Positions 14,787 to 22,830 of a stretch of 64,000 nt of DNA are shown here, piece after piece. The notes below the pieces were generated by a model. That model saw only the letters and a list, made by a program, of their open reading frames with translations. It was not told the origin of the DNA and made no database searches. The stretch comes from Allobacillus halotolerans. GTDB lineage: Bacteria > Bacillota > Bacilli > Bacillales > Alkalibacillaceae. The stretch covers positions 1 to 64,000 of the forward strand of contig NZ_JAHLZF010000008.1 of the NCBI RefSeq assembly GCF_018967645.1. Reading direction: 5' to 3'. The stretch's first letter is position 1, and the number at the start of each line of letters is the position of its first letter. The translations under genes and the position numbers were made by a program.

Positions 14787-16802
14787 TTAGGAAACACTTT
14801 CCGGCTGCCTGCCATGTTGCATTTCATACATCTTAAAGTATTCGCCTTTTTCTTTCAATAACGTTCGGTGTGTCCCTTCTTCTAATATTTTACCATGTTT
14901 TAAAACAAAAATTTGATCGGCTTGTTGAATGGTTGATAAACGATGCGCAATGACCAATGTTGTCCTTCCTGTTTTTAAGATATCCAGCGCTTTCTGGATC
15001 ATTGTTTCCGTTTCTGTATCGATGTTTGCGGTTGCTTCATCTAAAATGAGGATGGCTGGATCAAACGCCAACGCTCTGGCAAACGATAACAGTTGTCGTT
15101 GACCTGTTGAAAATTCATTCCCCTTCTCCTTCACTGGTTCATCGTATTGAAGTGGGAGTTGTTCGATAAATGTATTTGCGCCGACAGCTTTTAACGCTTG
15201 AATCGCATCTTTTCGTGAAATAGATGGATCATTCATCGTAATATTAGAAAGTATCGTTCCTGTAAAAATGAATGGGTCCTGAAGAACAATCCCAATATGC
15301 TGCCGCGTTTCTTGTCTTGATCCGTGGGTGATATCCTTCCCATCAATCCGAATCACTCCATGTGTCGAGTCGTAAAAACGGAATAATAAATTCATGATTG
15401 TGCTTTTCCCTGAACCTGTATGTCCCACGAAGGCAACAGTATCTCCAGGATTTACATTAAACGATATATCTTTAAGCACATATTCGTCCTTTTCATAGGC
15501 AAACGAAACATGGTCGAATTGAATGGCCCCTTCATAGCGCGCTGAAGGTTTTTCTTCAACTTCTTCCCCTTCAACATTCAATAATTCAAACACCCGACTA
15601 CCGGAAACACGTGCTTGCTCTAATTGTGGCAGCTGGCTAATGATTTGTTCCACTGGTTCGAATAATCTGGTTAAATAATCGACGAATGCATACAACACAC
15701 CAGCCGTTACGATGCTTGTGGCATTTAAAGACGCACCCCCAAAGTACAAGATAAACACAACGAAGGATAAATTTCTGAGTAGGTCGACGAGGTTAAATGA
15801 TGAGTAAGACGTAAATGTGTTCATCCGTGTTTGGAAATCTCTTTTCTTTTCATTTAAGACCTCGAATTCACCCTTCATTCGCTCTGTCTGGTTGAAGGCT
15901 TGAATGATTGGCATGCCTTGGATGGATTCATTAATATTCGCATTGATTTGACTGTTTGTTTCACGGATGACTCGATTGTATTTTCCTCCCACTTTCTTAT
16001 ACACCTTCATCCAAACATATAAAATCGGCAAGAGAACAAGACAAATGGCCGCCAATTTTGCGTTCAATAAGAAAAGTGCAATAAATATGCCAGATATATA
16101 AATAAACCCAGATGCAAATACTTCTAACACCCGTTCATATAACTCTTTGATCGCTTCCGTATCATTTGTCACTCTTGATAATATGGTTCCCGCCGGTTGA
16201 TCGACAAAATAAGAGACCGGCAGCCGTTGAATATGTTCAAATGCATCACCGCGCATTTTTTGAACAATCCGATTCGATACATACTGCAGCAAGTACGTTT
16301 TGTAATACAAAAAGATCGATGCAATGAGGATGAGGCCCATATATAAGCCAAGCAGCCATAAAATCGGCTCAATTTCTCGTTTAAAAAATAGAAACACATC
16401 ATTAGGCGTCAGCTTCTCACCTGTTGTGTGCATTAAGCGATCTTGATATTCGAACTGAAATTGTCCATTATTGCTATCAACTAGCTTTGCATCTAAAGGC
16501 ACACGTTCATGTAAAAAGTAGAACGATAGGCCATCTTGAAACAATGTAAAAACTTGGGTTTCCCCCTCGCCATGAAGTCTTTCTAATTGAAGCCCATTGT
16601 AAGTGATCGCCGACTCATCTTCCGATTCCACATAATGATTGGCAACAGCTACAATATGGTCATCAATTAACTTCTTGGCGATAAATGGACCGGTCAACTC
16701 CAATGCAACCGCTATGATCAAACAAAAAAGGCCGATGAAAATTGTTTTCTTGAATTGCATCGCATACTCAACTAATCGTTTTTCTGTTGAGGGATTATTC
16801 AT
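14787..16802 (-). CDS. bmrD: Heterodimeric multidrug ABC exporter subunit BmrD
   Basis: 671 residues: a six-helix ABC exporter membrane domain plus nucleotide-binding domain. Walker A is GHTGSGKST, signature STGQRQLLSF, Walker B AILILDEATANID and the H-loop is in IAHRLST. About 100 extra residues between the first two helices form an extracytoplasmic domain, characteristic of BmrD (YheH, about 673 residues in B. subtilis). Its start overlaps the bmrC stop by eight bases. In the BmrC/BmrD pair this subunit carries the consensus catalytic glutamate (LDEAT), whereas the partner has LDDSL. Confidence 0.93.
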   Translation of the reverse strand: MNNPSTEKRLVEYAMQFKKTIFIGLFCLIIAVALELTGPFIAKKLIDDHIVAVANHYVESEDESAITYNGLQLERLHGEGETQVFTLFQDGLSFYFLHERVPLDAKLVDSNNGQFQFEYQDRLMHTTGEKLTPNDVFLFFKREIEPILWLLGLYMGLILIASIFLYYKTYLLQYVSNRIVQKMRGDAFEHIQRLPVSYFVDQPAGTILSRVTNDTEAIKELYERVLEVFASGFIYISGIFIALFLLNAKLAAICLVLLPILYVWMKVYKKVGGKYNRVIRETNSQINANINESIQGMPIIQAFNQTERMKGEFEVLNEKKRDFQTRMNTFTSYSSFNLVDLLRNLSFVVFILYFGGASLNATSIVTAGVLYAFVDYLTRLFEPVEQIISQLPQLEQARVSGSRVFELLNVEGEEVEEKPSARYEGAIQFDHVSFAYEKDEYVLKDISFNVNPGDTVAFVGHTGSGKSTIMNLLFRFYDSTHGVIRIDGKDITHGSRQETRQHIGIVLQDPFIFTGTILSNITMNDPSISRKDAIQALKAVGANTFIEQLPLQYDEPVKEKGNEFSTGQRQLLSFARALAFDPAILILDEATANIDTETETMIQKALDILKTGRTTLVIAHRLSTIQQADQIFVLKHGKILEEGTHRTLLKEKGEYFKMYEMQHGRQPESVS

Positions 16803-18546
16803 CCTGATTCCCTCCTTCCATTTGTTGTTTTTTGTATTGAGAATAATACCAGTTATTATTGTGCATTAATTCTTTATGACAGCCACGTTCAGTAACTTTT
16901 CCGTCTTTGAGCACGATAATTTCATCGGCATGTTTGACTGCGGATAATCGGTGTGCAGCAATTAATGTCGTTTTTCCTTTTCGTTCCTCTTTCAAATGTT
17001 GAATGATTTTGGCTTCAGTCTGACCGTCGACTGCCGATAACGAGTCATCTAGAATCAAAATCTCGGGATTTTTAATAAGTGCTCGCGCAAGTGATACCCG
17101 TTGTTTTTGGCCACCGGATAGTGTTACCCCACTCTCTCCGACGAGTGTGTCGAGTCCCTTCGGCAGTTCTTCAATATCCTTTTTTAACGAGGCCATCTCT
17201 AAAATTCGGTAGATCTCTGCATCGGTAGCATCCTCTTTTCCAAACAAAATATTTTCTCGAACTGTTTTAGAAAATAAAATATGGTCTTGGGGTACATAAC
17301 CAATCCAATGACGTGTTTGTTCTAACGCATAATCTTGAATTGGATTGTCATTGATACAGACACTTCCTTTATCACATGGTGGATATTCTCGTAATAGTTG
17401 GCGGAACAAAGTCGTTTTACCTGCACCTGTTTTCCCAACAATACCAACCGTTCCTCCTTGGTTGATGTGCAGGAAAACATCCTTCAAGCTAAAATCGGCT
17501 GCATTCGGATAGCGAAATGAAACATGATCAAATGTAATCTTTTCTACATGCTTAGCTTGAGTTGGATTCAAAGGATCCGTCACATCCGCTTTCTGGGATA
17601 ATAACTCTCCCGTACGATCTAAAGAAGCATTTCCTCGTTGCATGACATTGATCAGTTCGCCCACTGCGAACATTGGCCAAATCAACATGCCTAAAAAGAT
17701 ATTAAACGTGACTAGTTCGCCGATAGTTATGACACTTTGCATGACAAAAAAAGCTCCATAACCAATCCCAATCGTATAAGAAAGACCGACCAATACTTTG
17801 ATCGTTGGTTCAAAAAGCGCATCTAACTTCGCAACTAAAATGTTTCGTTGAAATACATCCTCTGCTTGTTCTTTAAACCGTTCGGTATCCTGGTTTTCTT
17901 GCACGAATGCTCGGATGACCCTAACACCTTGAATCGATTCGAGTGTATTATTATTCAAATCACTAAACGCCGACTGTGCGTCCATAAAACGCTCATGAAT
18001 TTTTTTGCCGTACTTTTGCATGATCAGTGCCATAATCGGTAAGGGAATGAGTGCAGCAAATGTTAGTTTCCAATTGATGACAACCGCCATGACACCAATA
18101 ATCAGTGCCATAAAAATAGTTGCATCGACTAACGTTAATATGCCGAAGCCTGCGGTCATATTCAGTGCCCGAAGATCATTCGTACTACGAGCCATCAAAT
18201 CTCCCGTTCGAAATCGTCCGTAAAAAGGCGATGTCATTCGCATAAAATGGTCCATTAGCTTTGAACGCATTTTCTTCTCTAATAATATCGCCCGTCCGAA
18301 TAATGTGTAGTCCCAATAGATCGATAACAAATAACTGACCACCAATATGGAGATAAACAGAACAACATAATAGGTGAAATCCTCCTGTGTGAGTCGGTTA
18401 TATTGAATTAAATCAATGACCCGACCGACGAGTATAGGCGGAATAACACCTAATATATTGACAACAATCAATGCCGAAATGGCTAACGTATATTTCAGCC
18501 ATTGCTCCTTAAAATACCATGATAATTTTTTGAATACGGAAATCAT
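16795..18546 (-). CDS. bmrC: Heterodimeric multidrug ABC exporter subunit BmrC
   Basis: 583 residues, matching BmrC (YheI, about 585). A six-helix membrane domain is followed by an ATPase domain with GKTGAGKTT, signature LSGGQKQRVSL and Walker B EILILDDSLSAVD. The Asp in place of the catalytic Glu marks the degenerate half of a heterodimer, as expected beside BmrD. The ATG follows a GGAGGGAATCA site. The gene lies downstream of a leader peptide and hairpin (18657-18872), so expression should depend on read-through. Confidence 0.93.
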   Translation of the reverse strand: MISVFKKLSWYFKEQWLKYTLAISALIVVNILGVIPPILVGRVIDLIQYNRLTQEDFTYYVVLFISILVVSYLLSIYWDYTLFGRAILLEKKMRSKLMDHFMRMTSPFYGRFRTGDLMARSTNDLRALNMTAGFGILTLVDATIFMALIIGVMAVVINWKLTFAALIPLPIMALIMQKYGKKIHERFMDAQSAFSDLNNNTLESIQGVRVIRAFVQENQDTERFKEQAEDVFQRNILVAKLDALFEPTIKVLVGLSYTIGIGYGAFFVMQSVITIGELVTFNIFLGMLIWPMFAVGELINVMQRGNASLDRTGELLSQKADVTDPLNPTQAKHVEKITFDHVSFRYPNAADFSLKDVFLHINQGGTVGIVGKTGAGKTTLFRQLLREYPPCDKGSVCINDNPIQDYALEQTRHWIGYVPQDHILFSKTVRENILFGKEDATDAEIYRILEMASLKKDIEELPKGLDTLVGESGVTLSGGQKQRVSLARALIKNPEILILDDSLSAVDGQTEAKIIQHLKEERKGKTTLIAAHRLSAVKHADEIIVLKDGKVTERGCHKELMHNNNWYYSQYKKQQMEGGNQDE

Positions 18547-18656
18547 TTGATTCCCTCCTTTTAAACCCCTTCTTAATTACTTAGGTAATTGCGACTTGCT
18601 GTGTTCGATTTTTAAAACATGCGCAAAAGTGTACTCAGCAACCTAATTTTTGACAC

Positions 18657-18688
18657 AAAAATGCCGTGGGGAATATAGCCCACGGCAT
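18657..18688 (-). terminator. Attenuator terminator between leader peptide and bmrC
   Basis: Minus strand: a perfect 10-bp stem ATGCCGTGGG/CCCACGGCAT with an eight-base loop, then TTTTTGTG. It lies about 110 bases before bmrC and about 100 after the leader stop. Upstream, GAATTG..TTAATC around the leader stop (18782-18794) can pair with 18705-18720, so alternative folds that depend on ribosome position are possible. Confidence 0.8.
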
Positions 18689-18788
18689 GCGCATTCGATT
18701 AAAAGATTAATCAACAATTCGATATTCTTTCATCTATTAGGCAACATAATAAAAATGAATTTACAAGATGATTAAGGATATGAATTGC

Positions 18789-18872
18789 TTAATCACGATC
18801 GACTCCAGCAAGGTCACGGACTTTTGTTGTACTATAAAATTTCACTTTGTTCATCTGTTTAATGGTTAACAT
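18789..18872 (-). CDS. 27-residue leader peptide of the bmrCD operon (BmrB-like)
   Basis: ATG at 18872 follows an excellent site (AAAGGAGGTCAGGGG). The peptide is MLTIKQMNKVKFYSTTKV followed by a nine-residue tail ending VDRD. It sits between a strong promoter and a perfect intrinsic terminator upstream of bmrC. In B. subtilis, bmrCD is preceded by the small gene bmrB, whose translation controls terminator formation when ribosome-targeting antibiotics stall it. The same architecture is seen here. I cannot verify sequence similarity to BmrB, so the name is given by position and layout. Confidence 0.75.
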   Translation of the reverse strand: MLTIKQMNKVKFYSTTKVRDLAGVDRD

Positions 18873-18906
18873 TCCCCTGACCTCCTTTAATTTGTTTGTT
18901 GATAAG

Positions 18907-18935
18907 AGTATAACCATTAAAAGTTAAGAATTCAA
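18907..18935 (-). promoter_or_regulatory. Vegetative promoter of the bmr leader and bmrCD
   Basis: Minus strand: TTGAAT (18930-18935), 17 bases, TATACT (18907-18912). It lies 35 bases upstream of the leader peptide start. Confidence 0.75.
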
Positions 18936-19047: not shown

Positions 19048-20577
19048 ATGAAGCGGAAATCAATGAAGAAAAAACAACAAAGCCTATTTCCTTGTACATT
19101 GGAAGAATTGCAGACGGAACTCAAAGAAAAAGCGATGAACAATAACCCGGATTTTGTGATGAAAATCGTTGAAACGGAAAGTGAGCAACGAATTGGATTT
19201 TATTTTTTGTATACGATTGTTAAACCACAAGTATTATACGATCAAATTATTTCACCCGTACAAAAAGCCAAGATGACATTAGACATTCAATCCATCGATC
19301 ATATGATTGTGTTACCGGATTCAAAACAAAAAAGCAATTTAGATGAGATCGGACAACTTCTCATTCAAGGCTCTGTATGTATTTACATCGAAAACGATCA
19401 AATGAGCCTCTTGCACTCTGTACCGCTACAAGAACACCGTTCAATTGAACGTGCTGAAACAGAATCACTCATTTTCGGTCCACAAATTGCTTTTACGAAT
19501 TCCATTGGAACCAATTTAAATATGATTCGGAACATGGTCGACACACCTCATCTAAAAATCGAAAAGTTCATTATCGGCAATCGAATTCCGACCGAAGTTC
19601 AAATGATGTATATGGATGACATTGCAAATGACGAAAATGTGATTGAATTAAGAAATCGTCTCACTTCCTTGCGTACAGAAGATGTGATGAACAGCGCGGT
19701 ATTGAGTCAACAAATTGAAGATAATCCATATTCGATTTTCCCACAATTCATGGTCTCTGAATTGCCTGATCGATTTAGCTACAGTATAAAAGAAGGAAAA
19801 ATAGGTATTCTCGTTGATAACAGTCCTTCAGGAATTATCGCGCCCATTACATTTTCTAGCTTCTTTGAATCAACAGACGACATTTATGGACGATGGATTA
19901 TTGGTTTTTTTACACGCTTAATGCGCATGTTTGCCATGATTGTGTCCATTACATTAACACCGATCTATGTGGCCGCACTTACCTTCCATTATGAAGTGAT
20001 TCCAGAGGCACTGCTACTGTCACTCGGTGAATCACGTAATCGAGTTCCATTTCCACCATTGTTGGAAACTCTAATATTGGAAACGATGATGGAATTCATT
20101 CGGGAAGCCGGTGCTCGGTTGCCGACAAAGGTAGGCCAAACGATGGGTATCGTCGGAGGGATTGTCATCGGACAGGCAGTCGTCCAAGCTGGATTTACGA
20201 GTAATATCTTGATTATTCTTGTTGCACTCAGTGCACTCGCGTCCTTTACGACACCTGATTATGTCATGGGGTCTTCTTTACGGATTTTGCGTTTTCCAAT
20301 CATCATATTTGCCGGGTTTTTGGGATTCGTTGGGTTCTTTTTCATGTTAGCTTTTATCATTATTCATTTACTGAGACTTCGTTCTTTGCATCGCCCATAT
20401 ACAGCGCCAATCTATCCATTTCGTTTTACAGATTTTGACCAGTCACAAGTTCGCATTCCATTTGTTTTAAACAAGGAACGCCCCGTCTCCAATTTACCGA
20501 AAAAAACAGAGCGACAAGGGAGAAACTCTCACAACCACCCTTTGTTTAAGACAAGAGGAAAAGACATCGATGAATAG
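19048..20577 (+). CDS. Spore germination receptor A subunit (GerA/GerBA/GerKA family)
   Basis: 509 residues. A soluble N-terminal domain of about 280 residues precedes four to five membrane helices in the second half, the typical GerAA layout. Family signatures include IGNRIPTEVQMMYMDDIAND, PQFMVSELPDR and RVPFPPLLETLILETMMEFI. A hydrophilic C-terminal tail follows. The protein sits in the spore inner membrane with the B and C subunits and responds to nutrient germinants, probably as an ion channel. The ATG follows AAAGGGAGA. It is the first gene of a three-gene plus-strand operon. The germinant cannot be predicted, so no paralogue letter is given. Confidence 0.95.
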   Translation: MKRKSMKKKQQSLFPCTLEELQTELKEKAMNNNPDFVMKIVETESEQRIGFYFLYTIVKPQVLYDQIISPVQKAKMTLDIQSIDHMIVLPDSKQKSNLDEIGQLLIQGSVCIYIENDQMSLLHSVPLQEHRSIERAETESLIFGPQIAFTNSIGTNLNMIRNMVDTPHLKIEKFIIGNRIPTEVQMMYMDDIANDENVIELRNRLTSLRTEDVMNSAVLSQQIEDNPYSIFPQFMVSELPDRFSYSIKEGKIGILVDNSPSGIIAPITFSSFFESTDDIYGRWIIGFFTRLMRMFAMIVSITLTPIYVAALTFHYEVIPEALLLSLGESRNRVPFPPLLETLILETMMEFIREAGARLPTKVGQTMGIVGGIVIGQAVVQAGFTSNILIILVALSALASFTTPDYVMGSSLRILRFPIIIFAGFLGFVGFFFMLAFIIIHLLRLRSLHRPYTAPIYPFRFTDFDQSQVRIPFVLNKERPVSNLPKKTERQGRNSHNHPLFKTRGKDIDE

Positions 20578-20585
20578 GTGATCAA

Positions 20586-21698
20586 ATGAAGAACCCTCTT
20601 AATATTCCAGAGCATCTAAAATTTCGCGCAAGTTATTTATTCTTTATTTTATTCAATATTTTGATAGGTGTCGGTGTTGTTGCGTTGCCACGACGAGTTT
20701 TTCAACATGCAAAGCAAGATAGTTGGCTCGTGATCATCATTACTGCAGTAATCGCTCATTTACTATTGGCTATCATCATTTTTATTCTGAAAACTTATAA
20801 AGGTACAGACTTATACGGGATTTTACAGGAAACATTCGGCAATTGGTTGGCTAAGGTGTTTGGCTACTTGTTCATTGTTTATTTTTTCATTGTTTATTTA
20901 AGTGCACTTACTAAATATACCGAATTTATTGTGGTGTTCATTTTCCCGCAGCATTCAAGATTTATTATTGGCTTCTTGATGACAATTTTAATAGCTTACT
21001 GCATTTACGGAGGAATACGCGTCATTGTAGGAGTTTGTTTTCTCTTTTTCTTGCTGTCATTTTGGCTCAACGGGGTGCTGGCTGTTCCTGCTACCATGAT
21101 CGATACGAATAATTATTTCCCCTTATTTGAGATTGATCGAAATGGATTATTTAACGGCTTACTCGTTTCGGCCTATTCTTTTCTTGGGATTGAAGTTTTA
21201 TGGTATTTGTATCCCTACATCCGAAACAAAGAAAAAACGATGCTGTATAGTCAATTAGGCCTGTTTGCCACTGTGATTGCCCTATTAGGATATGTAATTA
21301 TTTCGATTGGCTTCTTTGCACCAAAGCAACTAGAATCACTGATTTGGCCAGGATTTGTCATGTTTAAAGTTATTTCTTTTTCTGTTTTTGAACGGCTTGA
21401 TATTTTTGCTGTTTCATTTTGGAAGTTTATCATCTTGCCGAACTTAATCTTATATGCATGGTTAATGACGCGTAGCTTAAAACGAATCAAACATATTAAG
21501 CAAAAACATTCAATCTGGGGCATTATTATTCTCTCTTCGATAGGATTGCACTTCATTGATACGCAGCGACAATTGGAGCATCTTTTGAAAATTGCCGACT
21601 ATTCTGGTTTATTCTTTACATTTTTATTTCCTATTCTCTTACTTCCTTTTGCAATCATTAAACGAATCAGGGGTGCTAAAAATGAAAAACAAAATTAA
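20586..21698 (+). CDS. Spore germination receptor B subunit (GerAB-type permease)
   Basis: 370 residues with about ten membrane helices, a member of the APC-superfamily germinant-binding subunits. The first helix carries the family pattern FNILIGVGVVALPRRV; later helices include YSFLGIEVLWYLYPYI. It should bind the small-molecule germinant within the spore inner membrane. It begins eight bases after the A subunit, with AGGTGA upstream. Its last 17 bases overlap the C-subunit gene, consistent with coupled synthesis. Confidence 0.95.
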   Translation: MKNPLNIPEHLKFRASYLFFILFNILIGVGVVALPRRVFQHAKQDSWLVIIITAVIAHLLLAIIIFILKTYKGTDLYGILQETFGNWLAKVFGYLFIVYFFIVYLSALTKYTEFIVVFIFPQHSRFIIGFLMTILIAYCIYGGIRVIVGVCFLFFLLSFWLNGVLAVPATMIDTNNYFPLFEIDRNGLFNGLLVSAYSFLGIEVLWYLYPYIRNKEKTMLYSQLGLFATVIALLGYVIISIGFFAPKQLESLIWPGFVMFKVISFSVFERLDIFAVSFWKFIILPNLILYAWLMTRSLKRIKHIKQKHSIWGIIILSSIGLHFIDTQRQLEHLLKIADYSGLFFTFLFPILLLPFAIIKRIRGAKNEKQN

Positions 21699-22830
21699 GA
21701 AATTTTTAATCATAGTTAGTACCTTCATGCTATTGACTGGCTGTGCTCAAGAACGCATTTTAGAACAATTGGGAATTATCACTGCGATCGGTCTTGACAA
21801 AGGAGAAGAGGAACGAGAAGTGTTCGGTTCTTTTGTAACCTACAAGTTTAGCCAGCAACTAAGCAATGAAAGTACCCCCATTTACTCATATGGAAGGACA
21901 GCTAGAGATGCTTATAACCAAGCTTTTTCAAAAACAGCAAAACAGTTGGTTACAGGACAATTAAGAGCCGTTCTTTATGGACCGGAGCTAGCAAAAGAAG
22001 GAATTTGGCCTCATTTAAATGGGCTGCAACGAAACCAGTTTGTTACCGATTTATTATATGTTACGGTAACGGATATGCCCGCAAAAGAAGTGCTTAGTGC
22101 ACAAATATATGAAGAAGCTCCTAATGTCGGTATATATATATATAAACTCCTGGATCAAGTGGTCGGTAAAGAACAAATTATTGATAGCAGTTTACATGAA
22201 TTCACTAAAAATTATATGAAAATCGGTGCCGATCCAATTACACCGGTTCTATCCAAAAAAGACGACCGTGTTATTGTCACAGGACTTGGCCTATTCCAAG
22301 ATGATCGACTCATGGAAATCATTGATTTAAGAGAGGCATTTTATGTCCGTTTGATTCTGGATGAATTTAAAGCTGGGGAACTACAGGTTGAGTTACCCAC
22401 AGAAAACTACCGACAATTTATGGAGGATTTCGATCCATCACCTGAGGAAGAATCCTTTGAAATGACAGTACAACAAGTCAGAAGTAGTTCTACTATTACG
22501 GTGAAAGAACCAGAAAATAACCGTTTTGGATTGGATATCAATTTCGAAGGCGAAATTAGAGAGCTTAATAAAGAGATAGATCTGGAAAGTGAAGAAGTCA
22601 TCCGCATGCTTGAAAAGGATCTCTCGAAAATAATTGAAGATAATATTACTAAAATTTTAGAAAAAACACAAGAACTGAATGTGGATTCTTTTGGTTTCGG
22701 AACCTTTTGGAATTCCACTTTTAAAGGAAATAAGAAATTGTCAGAGGAAGAATGGAGAAAAGAATATCCGAATTTCCAATTTGATGTCAATGTAAAAACA
22801 AAAATACTGCGACATGGAATTACGCAGTAA
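21682..22830 (+). CDS. Spore germination receptor C subunit lipoprotein (GerAC family)
   Basis: 382 residues from the ATG at 21682 (AGGGGTG upstream). The longer frame overlapping the B gene is rejected because the signal peptide begins here: basic start, hydrophobic stretch and lipobox LLTGC (Cys about 19). After the lipid anchor come the family's three mixed alpha/beta domains (QLGIITAIGLDKGEEE near the start; RHGITQ at the end). It is attached to the outer face of the inner spore membrane. No strong terminator follows within 300 bases. Confidence 0.95.
   Translation: MKNKIKKFLIIVSTFMLLTGCAQERILEQLGIITAIGLDKGEEEREVFGSFVTYKFSQQLSNESTPIYSYGRTARDAYNQAFSKTAKQLVTGQLRAVLYGPELAKEGIWPHLNGLQRNQFVTDLLYVTVTDMPAKEVLSAQIYEEAPNVGIYIYKLLDQVVGKEQIIDSSLHEFTKNYMKIGADPITPVLSKKDDRVIVTGLGLFQDDRLMEIIDLREAFYVRLILDEFKAGELQVELPTENYRQFMEDFDPSPEEESFEMTVQQVRSSSTITVKEPENNRFGLDINFEGEIRELNKEIDLESEEVIRMLEKDLSKIIEDNITKILEKTQELNVDSFGFGTFWNSTFKGNKKLSEEEWRKEYPNFQFDVNVKTKILRHGITQ

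Follow-up and report, generated by a model that had tools for sequence, protein, structure and literature searches.

The window analysed here comprises 64,000 nucleotides of DNA from Allobacillus halotolerans, a salt-loving relative of Bacillus, and the whole study was computational. Two genes on its minus strand encode the subunits of an ABC exporter. bmrC (16795-18546, minus strand) encodes a protein of 583 amino acids whose first match among solved structures is B. subtilis YheI/BmrC (E 5.5e-228; best other molecule 3.7e-128). bmrD (14787-16802, minus strand) encodes a protein of 671 amino acids that first matches B. subtilis YheH/BmrD (E 1.4e-209; best other molecule 7.2e-135), which confirms the identity given to this gene pair in a preliminary description of the DNA. 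The bmrC sequence is 92% identical to the copy in A. saliphilus and 91% identical to that in A. salarius. On the plus strand, divergent spore germination genes of the gerA/gerB/gerC type (Pfam GerA, Spore_permease, and Spore_GerAC) occupy 19048-22830.

The leader region of bmrC lies on the minus strand and carries a ribosome site, a 27-codon reading frame, and an intrinsic terminator, followed by bmrC itself, all of which had been recognized in the preliminary description. A promoter-like site, TTGAAT-17-TATACT (18907-18935, minus strand), is also present there and in the sister loci L009 (spacer 16) and L010 (spacer 17). The term near-consensus, under which it was first listed, is generous for 9 of 12 consensus matches. 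Sites of such quality were found 16 times against 19.7 expected from shuffles; because they are no commoner than in shuffled sequence, the match alone means little, and promoter quality was dropped as evidence. The leader frame, uORF1 (18789-18872, minus strand), begins with an ATG at 18872, is preceded by the ribosome site AAAGGAGGTCAGGGGA, and encodes the peptide MLTIKQMNKVKFYSTTKVRDLAGVDRD. The terminator (18661-18688, minus strand) consists of a 10-pair stem with 7 G-C pairs and a T-run. Its stem is identical in L009 and L010, where the loop is variable, and terminator-like sites in the scanned 6 kb number 9 against 4.6 expected. With the leader stop at 18789 and the terminator start at 18688, the terminator lies outside the leader coding sequence, about 100 bases away from it, and 114 bases separate the terminator hairpin from the bmrC start (18546). 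The minus strand of 18650-18900 folds more stably than 199 of 200 shuffled versions (z -2.78).

Four further elements are located between the promoter-like site and the terminator or within the latter, all on the minus strand. Segment 1 (18874-18884) is the ribosome-site region of the leader and is a partner of segment 2 (18810-18822), which corresponds to leader codons 17-21. Segment 2 has an alternative partner in segment 3 (18677-18684), the sequence CGUGGGCU, which belongs to the terminator (5′ arm and loop) and pairs with AGUCCGUG of segment 2. The fourth element is a spacer hairpin, whose 5′ arm GATTAAGCAATTC (18782-18794) includes the leader stop codon and whose 3′ arm lies at 18705-18720. 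The pattern formed by the ribosome site and segment 2 occurs only once in the genome of the window.

For the family comparison, 129 regions upstream of bmrC were taken from the window, named GTDB genomes, the family, the class, and the genus Bacillus, some of them being duplicates (L001, L009-L029, L039, L041-L044, L047, and L049-L149). Paralogues, or bmrD, of the genome of the window itself (L002-L008), two sequences that are not orthologues (L030 and L031), and duplicate contigs (L032-L038, L040, L045, L046, and L048) were left out. In the class, 236 of 398 genomes had a match, and upstream regions were read from 69 plus the window (29 loci and 40 regions). In the genus Bacillus, 43 of 44 genomes had a match and 32 were read (12 loci and 20 regions); G089, G183, and G259 are common to the two sets. 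Of the 129 regions, 121 contain a candidate leader frame that has a ribosome site and lies before a terminator. Removal of sequences more than 75% identical left a non-redundant set of 84 loci, and the exclusion of eight more that were unclear by eye left 76. The loci set aside by eye before counting were L055, L090, L104, L119-L122, L125, and L148, of which L125 had no candidate. Leaders in the 76 loci are 18-42 codons long (median 27). The space between leader and bmrC holds one terminator-like hairpin in 17 loci, two in 48, and three in 11. Such tandem arrangements thus occur in 59 of the 76, and the second hairpin in several of them resembles GCGTATACGTCAYGAACGTATACGC or GCACATTTGGCCACGGTCAAATGTGC; the window has one hairpin. 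A strict DNA pattern was of little use for finding the switch, as it matched only 3 of 22 family genomes.

The three segments were assigned from a repeated arrangement of complementary sequences. In nearer relatives such as L011, L021, and L028, the ribosome site continues into GGAGGTCACG, its complement CGTGACC is located in the distal leader codons, and the 5′ arm of the terminator repeats the ribosome-site sequence (GGTCACG or GTCGCG). GGTCACG is present at the ribosome site in 14 of 76 loci, and other loci have different yet complementary sequences. The pairing between segments 1 and 2 (1:2) has a native mean duplex energy of -18.96 kcal/mol compared with -13.66 (sd 0.34) when partners are swapped between loci, and the best of 2000 swaps was -14.73, so that none reached the native value (0/2000). 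The pairing between segments 2 and 3 (2:3) behaves in the same way, with a native mean of -14.55 kcal/mol compared with -11.74 (sd 0.31) and a best swap of -12.74 (0/2000). Co-variation in both pairings was maintained at stricter redundancy cut-offs (58-68 loci; 0/5000 permutations) and after the eight unclear loci were restored (84 loci; 0/5000), and that of 1:2 was also maintained when the reading frame was picked blind to pairing (0/5000). At the level of single loci, p < 0.05 was reached by 1:2 in 62 of 76 and by 2:3 in 36 of 76. In the window, the 1:2 duplex has an energy of -16.2 kcal/mol (p 0.020 against shuffled leaders). The window 2:3 duplex, AGUCCGUG (18822-18815) with CGUGGGCU (18684-18677), has 8 pairs including 3 wobble pairs; tested with the terminator arm alone, it scores no better than shuffled sequence (p 0.318). 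The same holds for the B. subtilis group under the same restriction (L060, L086, and L087; p 0.45-0.61).

The influence of translation on these pairings was modelled by folding transcripts that stop at the terminator loop; the ribosome was absent, early in the leader, or at the leader end, and was taken to cover 13 bases counted from the first base of its P site. Across 76 loci, the mean proportion of the terminator arm paired upstream was 0.61 with an early ribosome, 0.41 with none, and 0.25 with a late one. When leader codons were shuffled in the same loci, the values were 0.48, 0.47, and 0.25, and native and shuffled leaders differed with Wilcoxon values of 8.8e-10 and 1.7e-10. Upstream pairing was higher with an early than with a late ribosome in 72 of 76 loci, and higher than with no ribosome in 62 of 76. 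The corresponding values were 0.61 (early), 0.19 (none), and 0.21 (late) for the window and 0.74, 0.43, and 0.46 for B. subtilis L078. The sister loci L009 and L010 gave weaker contrasts, ranking 12/20 and 6/20 against shuffles for the early-minus-late difference. In modelled nascent RNA of the window without a ribosome, 1:2 forms at 0.87 and 2:3 at 0.0, and with a ribosome at codons 4-13 the value of 2:3 rises to 0.93-0.94. Mutually exclusive folds, which the preliminary description had proposed to look for, are thus predicted in nascent RNA; in the completed window RNA, the terminator is dominant at every ribosome position tested (0.89) and 2:3 is 0.0, unlike L021, in which the terminator drops to 0.39. 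This dominance means that the model needs kinetic control, with the outcome set while RNA polymerase makes the hairpin. A NusG-type pause motif (TTNTTT) between leader and terminator was found in 21 of 76 loci against 15.1 (sd 3.0) in shuffles, which is not a clear enrichment, and the motif is absent from the window.

The preliminary description had noted a different pairing, namely that of the leader-stop region with the sequence beyond it. The two arms can indeed pair (18794-18782 with 18720-18705), and both are present in the three Allobacillus genomes with one A-U to G-U change. As an antiterminator, this pairing was ruled out, since the hairpin forms in modelled nascent RNA with and without ribosomes, at 0.89 with no ribosome, 0.98 with a ribosome at codons 4-13, 0.96 at codon 16, 0.88 at codon 19, and 0.62 at codon 22. 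It is read here as a constant spacer. In the model, the switch lies in segment 2, with 1:2 as the predicted anti-antiterminator and 2:3 as the predicted antiterminator, and their mutual exclusion with the terminator is supported in the family by co-variation and folding and in the window by predicted folding.

Taken together, these data point to a ribosome-controlled transcription attenuator of bmrCD, in which the sensor is the position of the ribosome and not a specific peptide, with a probability of roughly 0.8. In this mechanism, segment 1 would pair with segment 2 when no ribosome is on the leader, the terminator would form, and transcription would stop. A freely moving ribosome would cover segment 2, and the terminator would form again. 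A ribosome slowed or held by a drug in roughly the first 13 codons would cover segment 1 and free segment 2, which could then pair with segment 3 before the 3′ arm of the terminator is made, so that RNA polymerase would enter bmrCD. The leader-stop hairpin would serve as a spacer that draws segments 2 and 3 close together. The parts, their conservation, and the family co-variation of 1:2 and 2:3 are apparent from sequence comparison, and the dependence of the fold on ribosome position is predicted by the folding model. That a drug-held ribosome would induce read-through is inferred from B. subtilis, as reported in the available text of PMC4191407.

An unlikely but still credible alternative is sequence-specific arrest by the nascent peptide, as in leaders of the tlrB/erm type, in which a drug would hold the ribosome at a fixed motif such as K9-V10-K11 and the terminator would stay open. 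tlrB acts through arrest at an RYR motif, according to the available text of PMC6851288, and the KVK codons (9-11) of the window leader, a +X+ macrolide motif, are kept in all three Allobacillus genomes and lie where a ribosome held on the leader would free segment 2. The three genomes are too close for this conservation to be meaningful. At residue 3, K, R, or N is found in 54 of 76 leaders compared with 18 of 51 ordinary genes, and the window leader has T; this weak N-terminal bias may be connected with early arrest, as in the MIN frame of vmlR. Against arrest, first-leader peptides otherwise differ between genera, and no conserved stall peptide was found in the 76 loci. The +X+ motif is not enriched (14 of 76 leaders compared with a shuffled mean of 17.5), and of the 31 of 76 leaders that contain GTGAC, 25 read it as GTG-AC and 6, including that of the window, use another frame. 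Substitutions in the B. subtilis group also reveal no peptide constraint (16 silent to 31 replacing). Hence, the arrest motif common to relatives by which a tlrB/erm-type peptide would be recognized was not found. The position, ribosome site, and architecture of uORF1 are conserved across the family and its peptide is not. The leader-peptide attenuator proposed ahead of bmrCD in the preliminary description is supported, without the fixed stall site: in 76 loci, the leader keeps its position, its ribosome site, and its terminator, and the alternative pairings co-vary.

Two further explanations are very improbable. In one, the small frame has arisen by chance and the terminator does no more than shield bmrCD from transcription coming from upstream, which would agree with a promoter-like site of a quality expected by chance and with the fact that intergenic terminators are common; because the GerA gene is divergent, the bmrC strand has no upstream gene from which to be shielded, and the recurrence of a leader with a ribosome site and a terminator in 121 of 129 regions, with 1:2 and 2:3 co-varying, speaks against it. 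A ligand-binding riboswitch or protein-binding leader, to which a structured 5′ leader with a terminator would also correspond, is just as improbable, because the co-varying structure contains a ribosome site and an open frame and an Rfam search, the only aptamer search, gave no family at gathering score (three matches of 21, 18.9, and 14.9 bits against thresholds of 50, 80, and 45).

The positional attenuator can be compared with three known systems of B. subtilis. The authors of the bmr study describe the operon as the first case of leader-peptide attenuation demonstrated for a multidrug ABC transporter, and they report that lincomycin control depends on the terminator, on the leader region being translated, and on a ribosomal drug site free of methylation (PMC4191407). 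The window shares with bmrBCD the exporter genes, a leader frame before an intrinsic terminator, and alternative structures (PMC4191407, available text), and B. subtilis L078 shows the pairing of segments 1 and 2 as well. The genes downstream in the window are BmrC/BmrD genes, their control being inferred, and a translatable leader followed by a terminator precedes bmrC. The two systems differ in that the published 54-codon frame of B. subtilis contains the terminator (PMC4191407, same portion), whereas the window leader ends 100 bases before it, and in that a second mini-ORF is found in B. subtilis and not in the window. Since doubt attaches to the published B. subtilis frame itself, a terminator inside the leader was not counted among the defining features. 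The window holds a variant of the bmrBCD attenuator with a single terminator, a short antiterminator, a long spacer hairpin, and no second mini-ORF. In the vmlR leader, a ribosome held on a short upstream frame also blocks an anti-antiterminator, so that an antiterminator forms and the terminator is avoided; unlike the window, the vmlR frame has 3 codons (MIN), its ribosome site is described as single-stranded and upstream of the first stem-loop, and vmlR itself has its ribosome site covered by another hairpin (PMC9226507, accessible sections). The tlrB (yxjB) leader resembles the window in having a leader peptide and a terminator, and differs in requiring the RYR arrest motif and NusG-dependent pausing (PMC6851288, accessible sections), whereas no conserved motif and no clearly enriched pause motif were found in the bmrCD leaders.

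The B. subtilis leader itself was examined in L078, whose BmrC is 100% identical to the solved B. subtilis protein over 102 residues. The published bmrB is a 53-residue (54-codon) frame with a GTG start 281 bases before bmrC; it was identified by its nucleotides 136 and 140, which are both C, as in the terminator mutant described in the available text of PMC4191407. No ribosome site was seen before this GTG in L078. A 23-codon frame in another register begins with an ATG 16 bases upstream of the GTG, extends from 297 to 225 bases before bmrC, and has a strong ribosome site (GGAAGGAGGGTTTGCT) and the architecture of the family; its ribosome site pairs with its own distal codons at -20.8 kcal/mol. 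In the 12 genomes of the B. subtilis group, including L078, the ATG with its ribosome site is kept in all 12 and the GTG in 7, the GTG position being taken at a fixed distance that may fail for the most distant genome (L089). The bmrB frame has at least 50 codons in 5 of the 12 and is shorter in 7. The silent-to-replacing counts (16:31 and 13:34) and codon positions did not tell the two frames apart. No fluorescence was detected from BmrB-GFP fused in frame on the chromosome, a plasmid version was fluorescent, and the bmrB start-codon mutant also had four changes in the 5′-UTR that removed alternative starts or ribosome sites (PMC4191407, available text). The silent chromosomal fusion and the additional 5′-UTR changes fit the 23-codon frame, and fluorescence from the plasmid argues that the published 54-codon frame is translated to some extent. 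Comparison of sequences suggests that the published leader may have been read in the wrong frame, the 23-codon frame being the better fit to the family architecture. If this reassignment is right, the published start-codon, rare-codon, and truncation mutants would need re-reading, and the sensor would be a generic gauge of ribosome progress over roughly the first dozen codons. Such a gauge would be consistent with the fact that lincomycin, erythromycin, and chloramphenicol all act as inducers.

Many loci contain a second mini-ORF with a ribosome site, beyond the terminator and directly before bmrC, and from this position it is expected in the read-through RNA. By the strict C-terminal motif [LIMVPFY][EDN][GSDN][GD]-stop, it was found in 49 of 76 loci and in none of 20 shuffles; an earlier count with a narrower start range gave 43 of 76. 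A relaxed motif, with the first position dropped, detected it in 54 of 76, and 20 shuffles gave at most 1 of 76. It has 16-36 codons, counted from the most downstream start, and ends 16-57 bases before bmrC. The conserved C terminus can be summarized as E/D-G/S-G-stop, with LEGG, LESG, LEGD, PESG, IDGG, and LDDG as typical ends. Several codons are used for each motif residue, an indication that the peptide rather than the RNA is conserved. In B. subtilis L078, the mini-ORF encodes MKTNTEARAVRAKLDEKSCKEKIEGG and extends from 98 to 17 bases before bmrC. It was not found in the window by either motif or in L009 and L010 by the strict motif, and many of the other loci without it belong to more distant relatives. 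Control of the bmrC ribosome site through folding around the mini-ORF was rejected, as the site was unpaired at 0.53 when free and at 0.50 with a ribosome at the mini-ORF stop (n = 40; 14 of 54 loci were excluded because a ribosome at the stop would cover the bmrC ribosome site). Slow termination or arrest at its own stop codon is our guess for its action. Pfam and NCBIfam gave no family for the four small peptides tried, with one Pfam match below the cut-off (15.3 of 25 bits). A description of the 23-codon frame or of the second mini-ORF was not found in the literature searched, which is weak evidence of absence since most subscription journals lay outside its scope.

From these observations, it can be hypothesized, with about even odds, that bmrCD operons of Bacillaceae carry two leader peptides. 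The first would be positional, the 54-codon bmrB of B. subtilis being wrong and the 23-codon frame being translated with its ribosome site as segment 1. The second mini-ORF would be an undescribed nascent-chain regulator of pump synthesis, and Allobacillus would have lost it. The mini-ORF, whose C terminus is conserved across genera and which is present in a model organism, is a candidate new peptide for ribosome arrest or termination control. L013, L014, and L024 carry an insertion of about 250 bases that follows the terminators and precedes the second mini-ORF; the inserted sequences are related (near CTTTCGGTGGACGCTTTCCG) and have the appearance of a small mobile repeat. In L041 and L042, the second mini-ORF is seemingly duplicated: one copy ends in RLEGG and the other in RTEGG, and another reading frame separates them.
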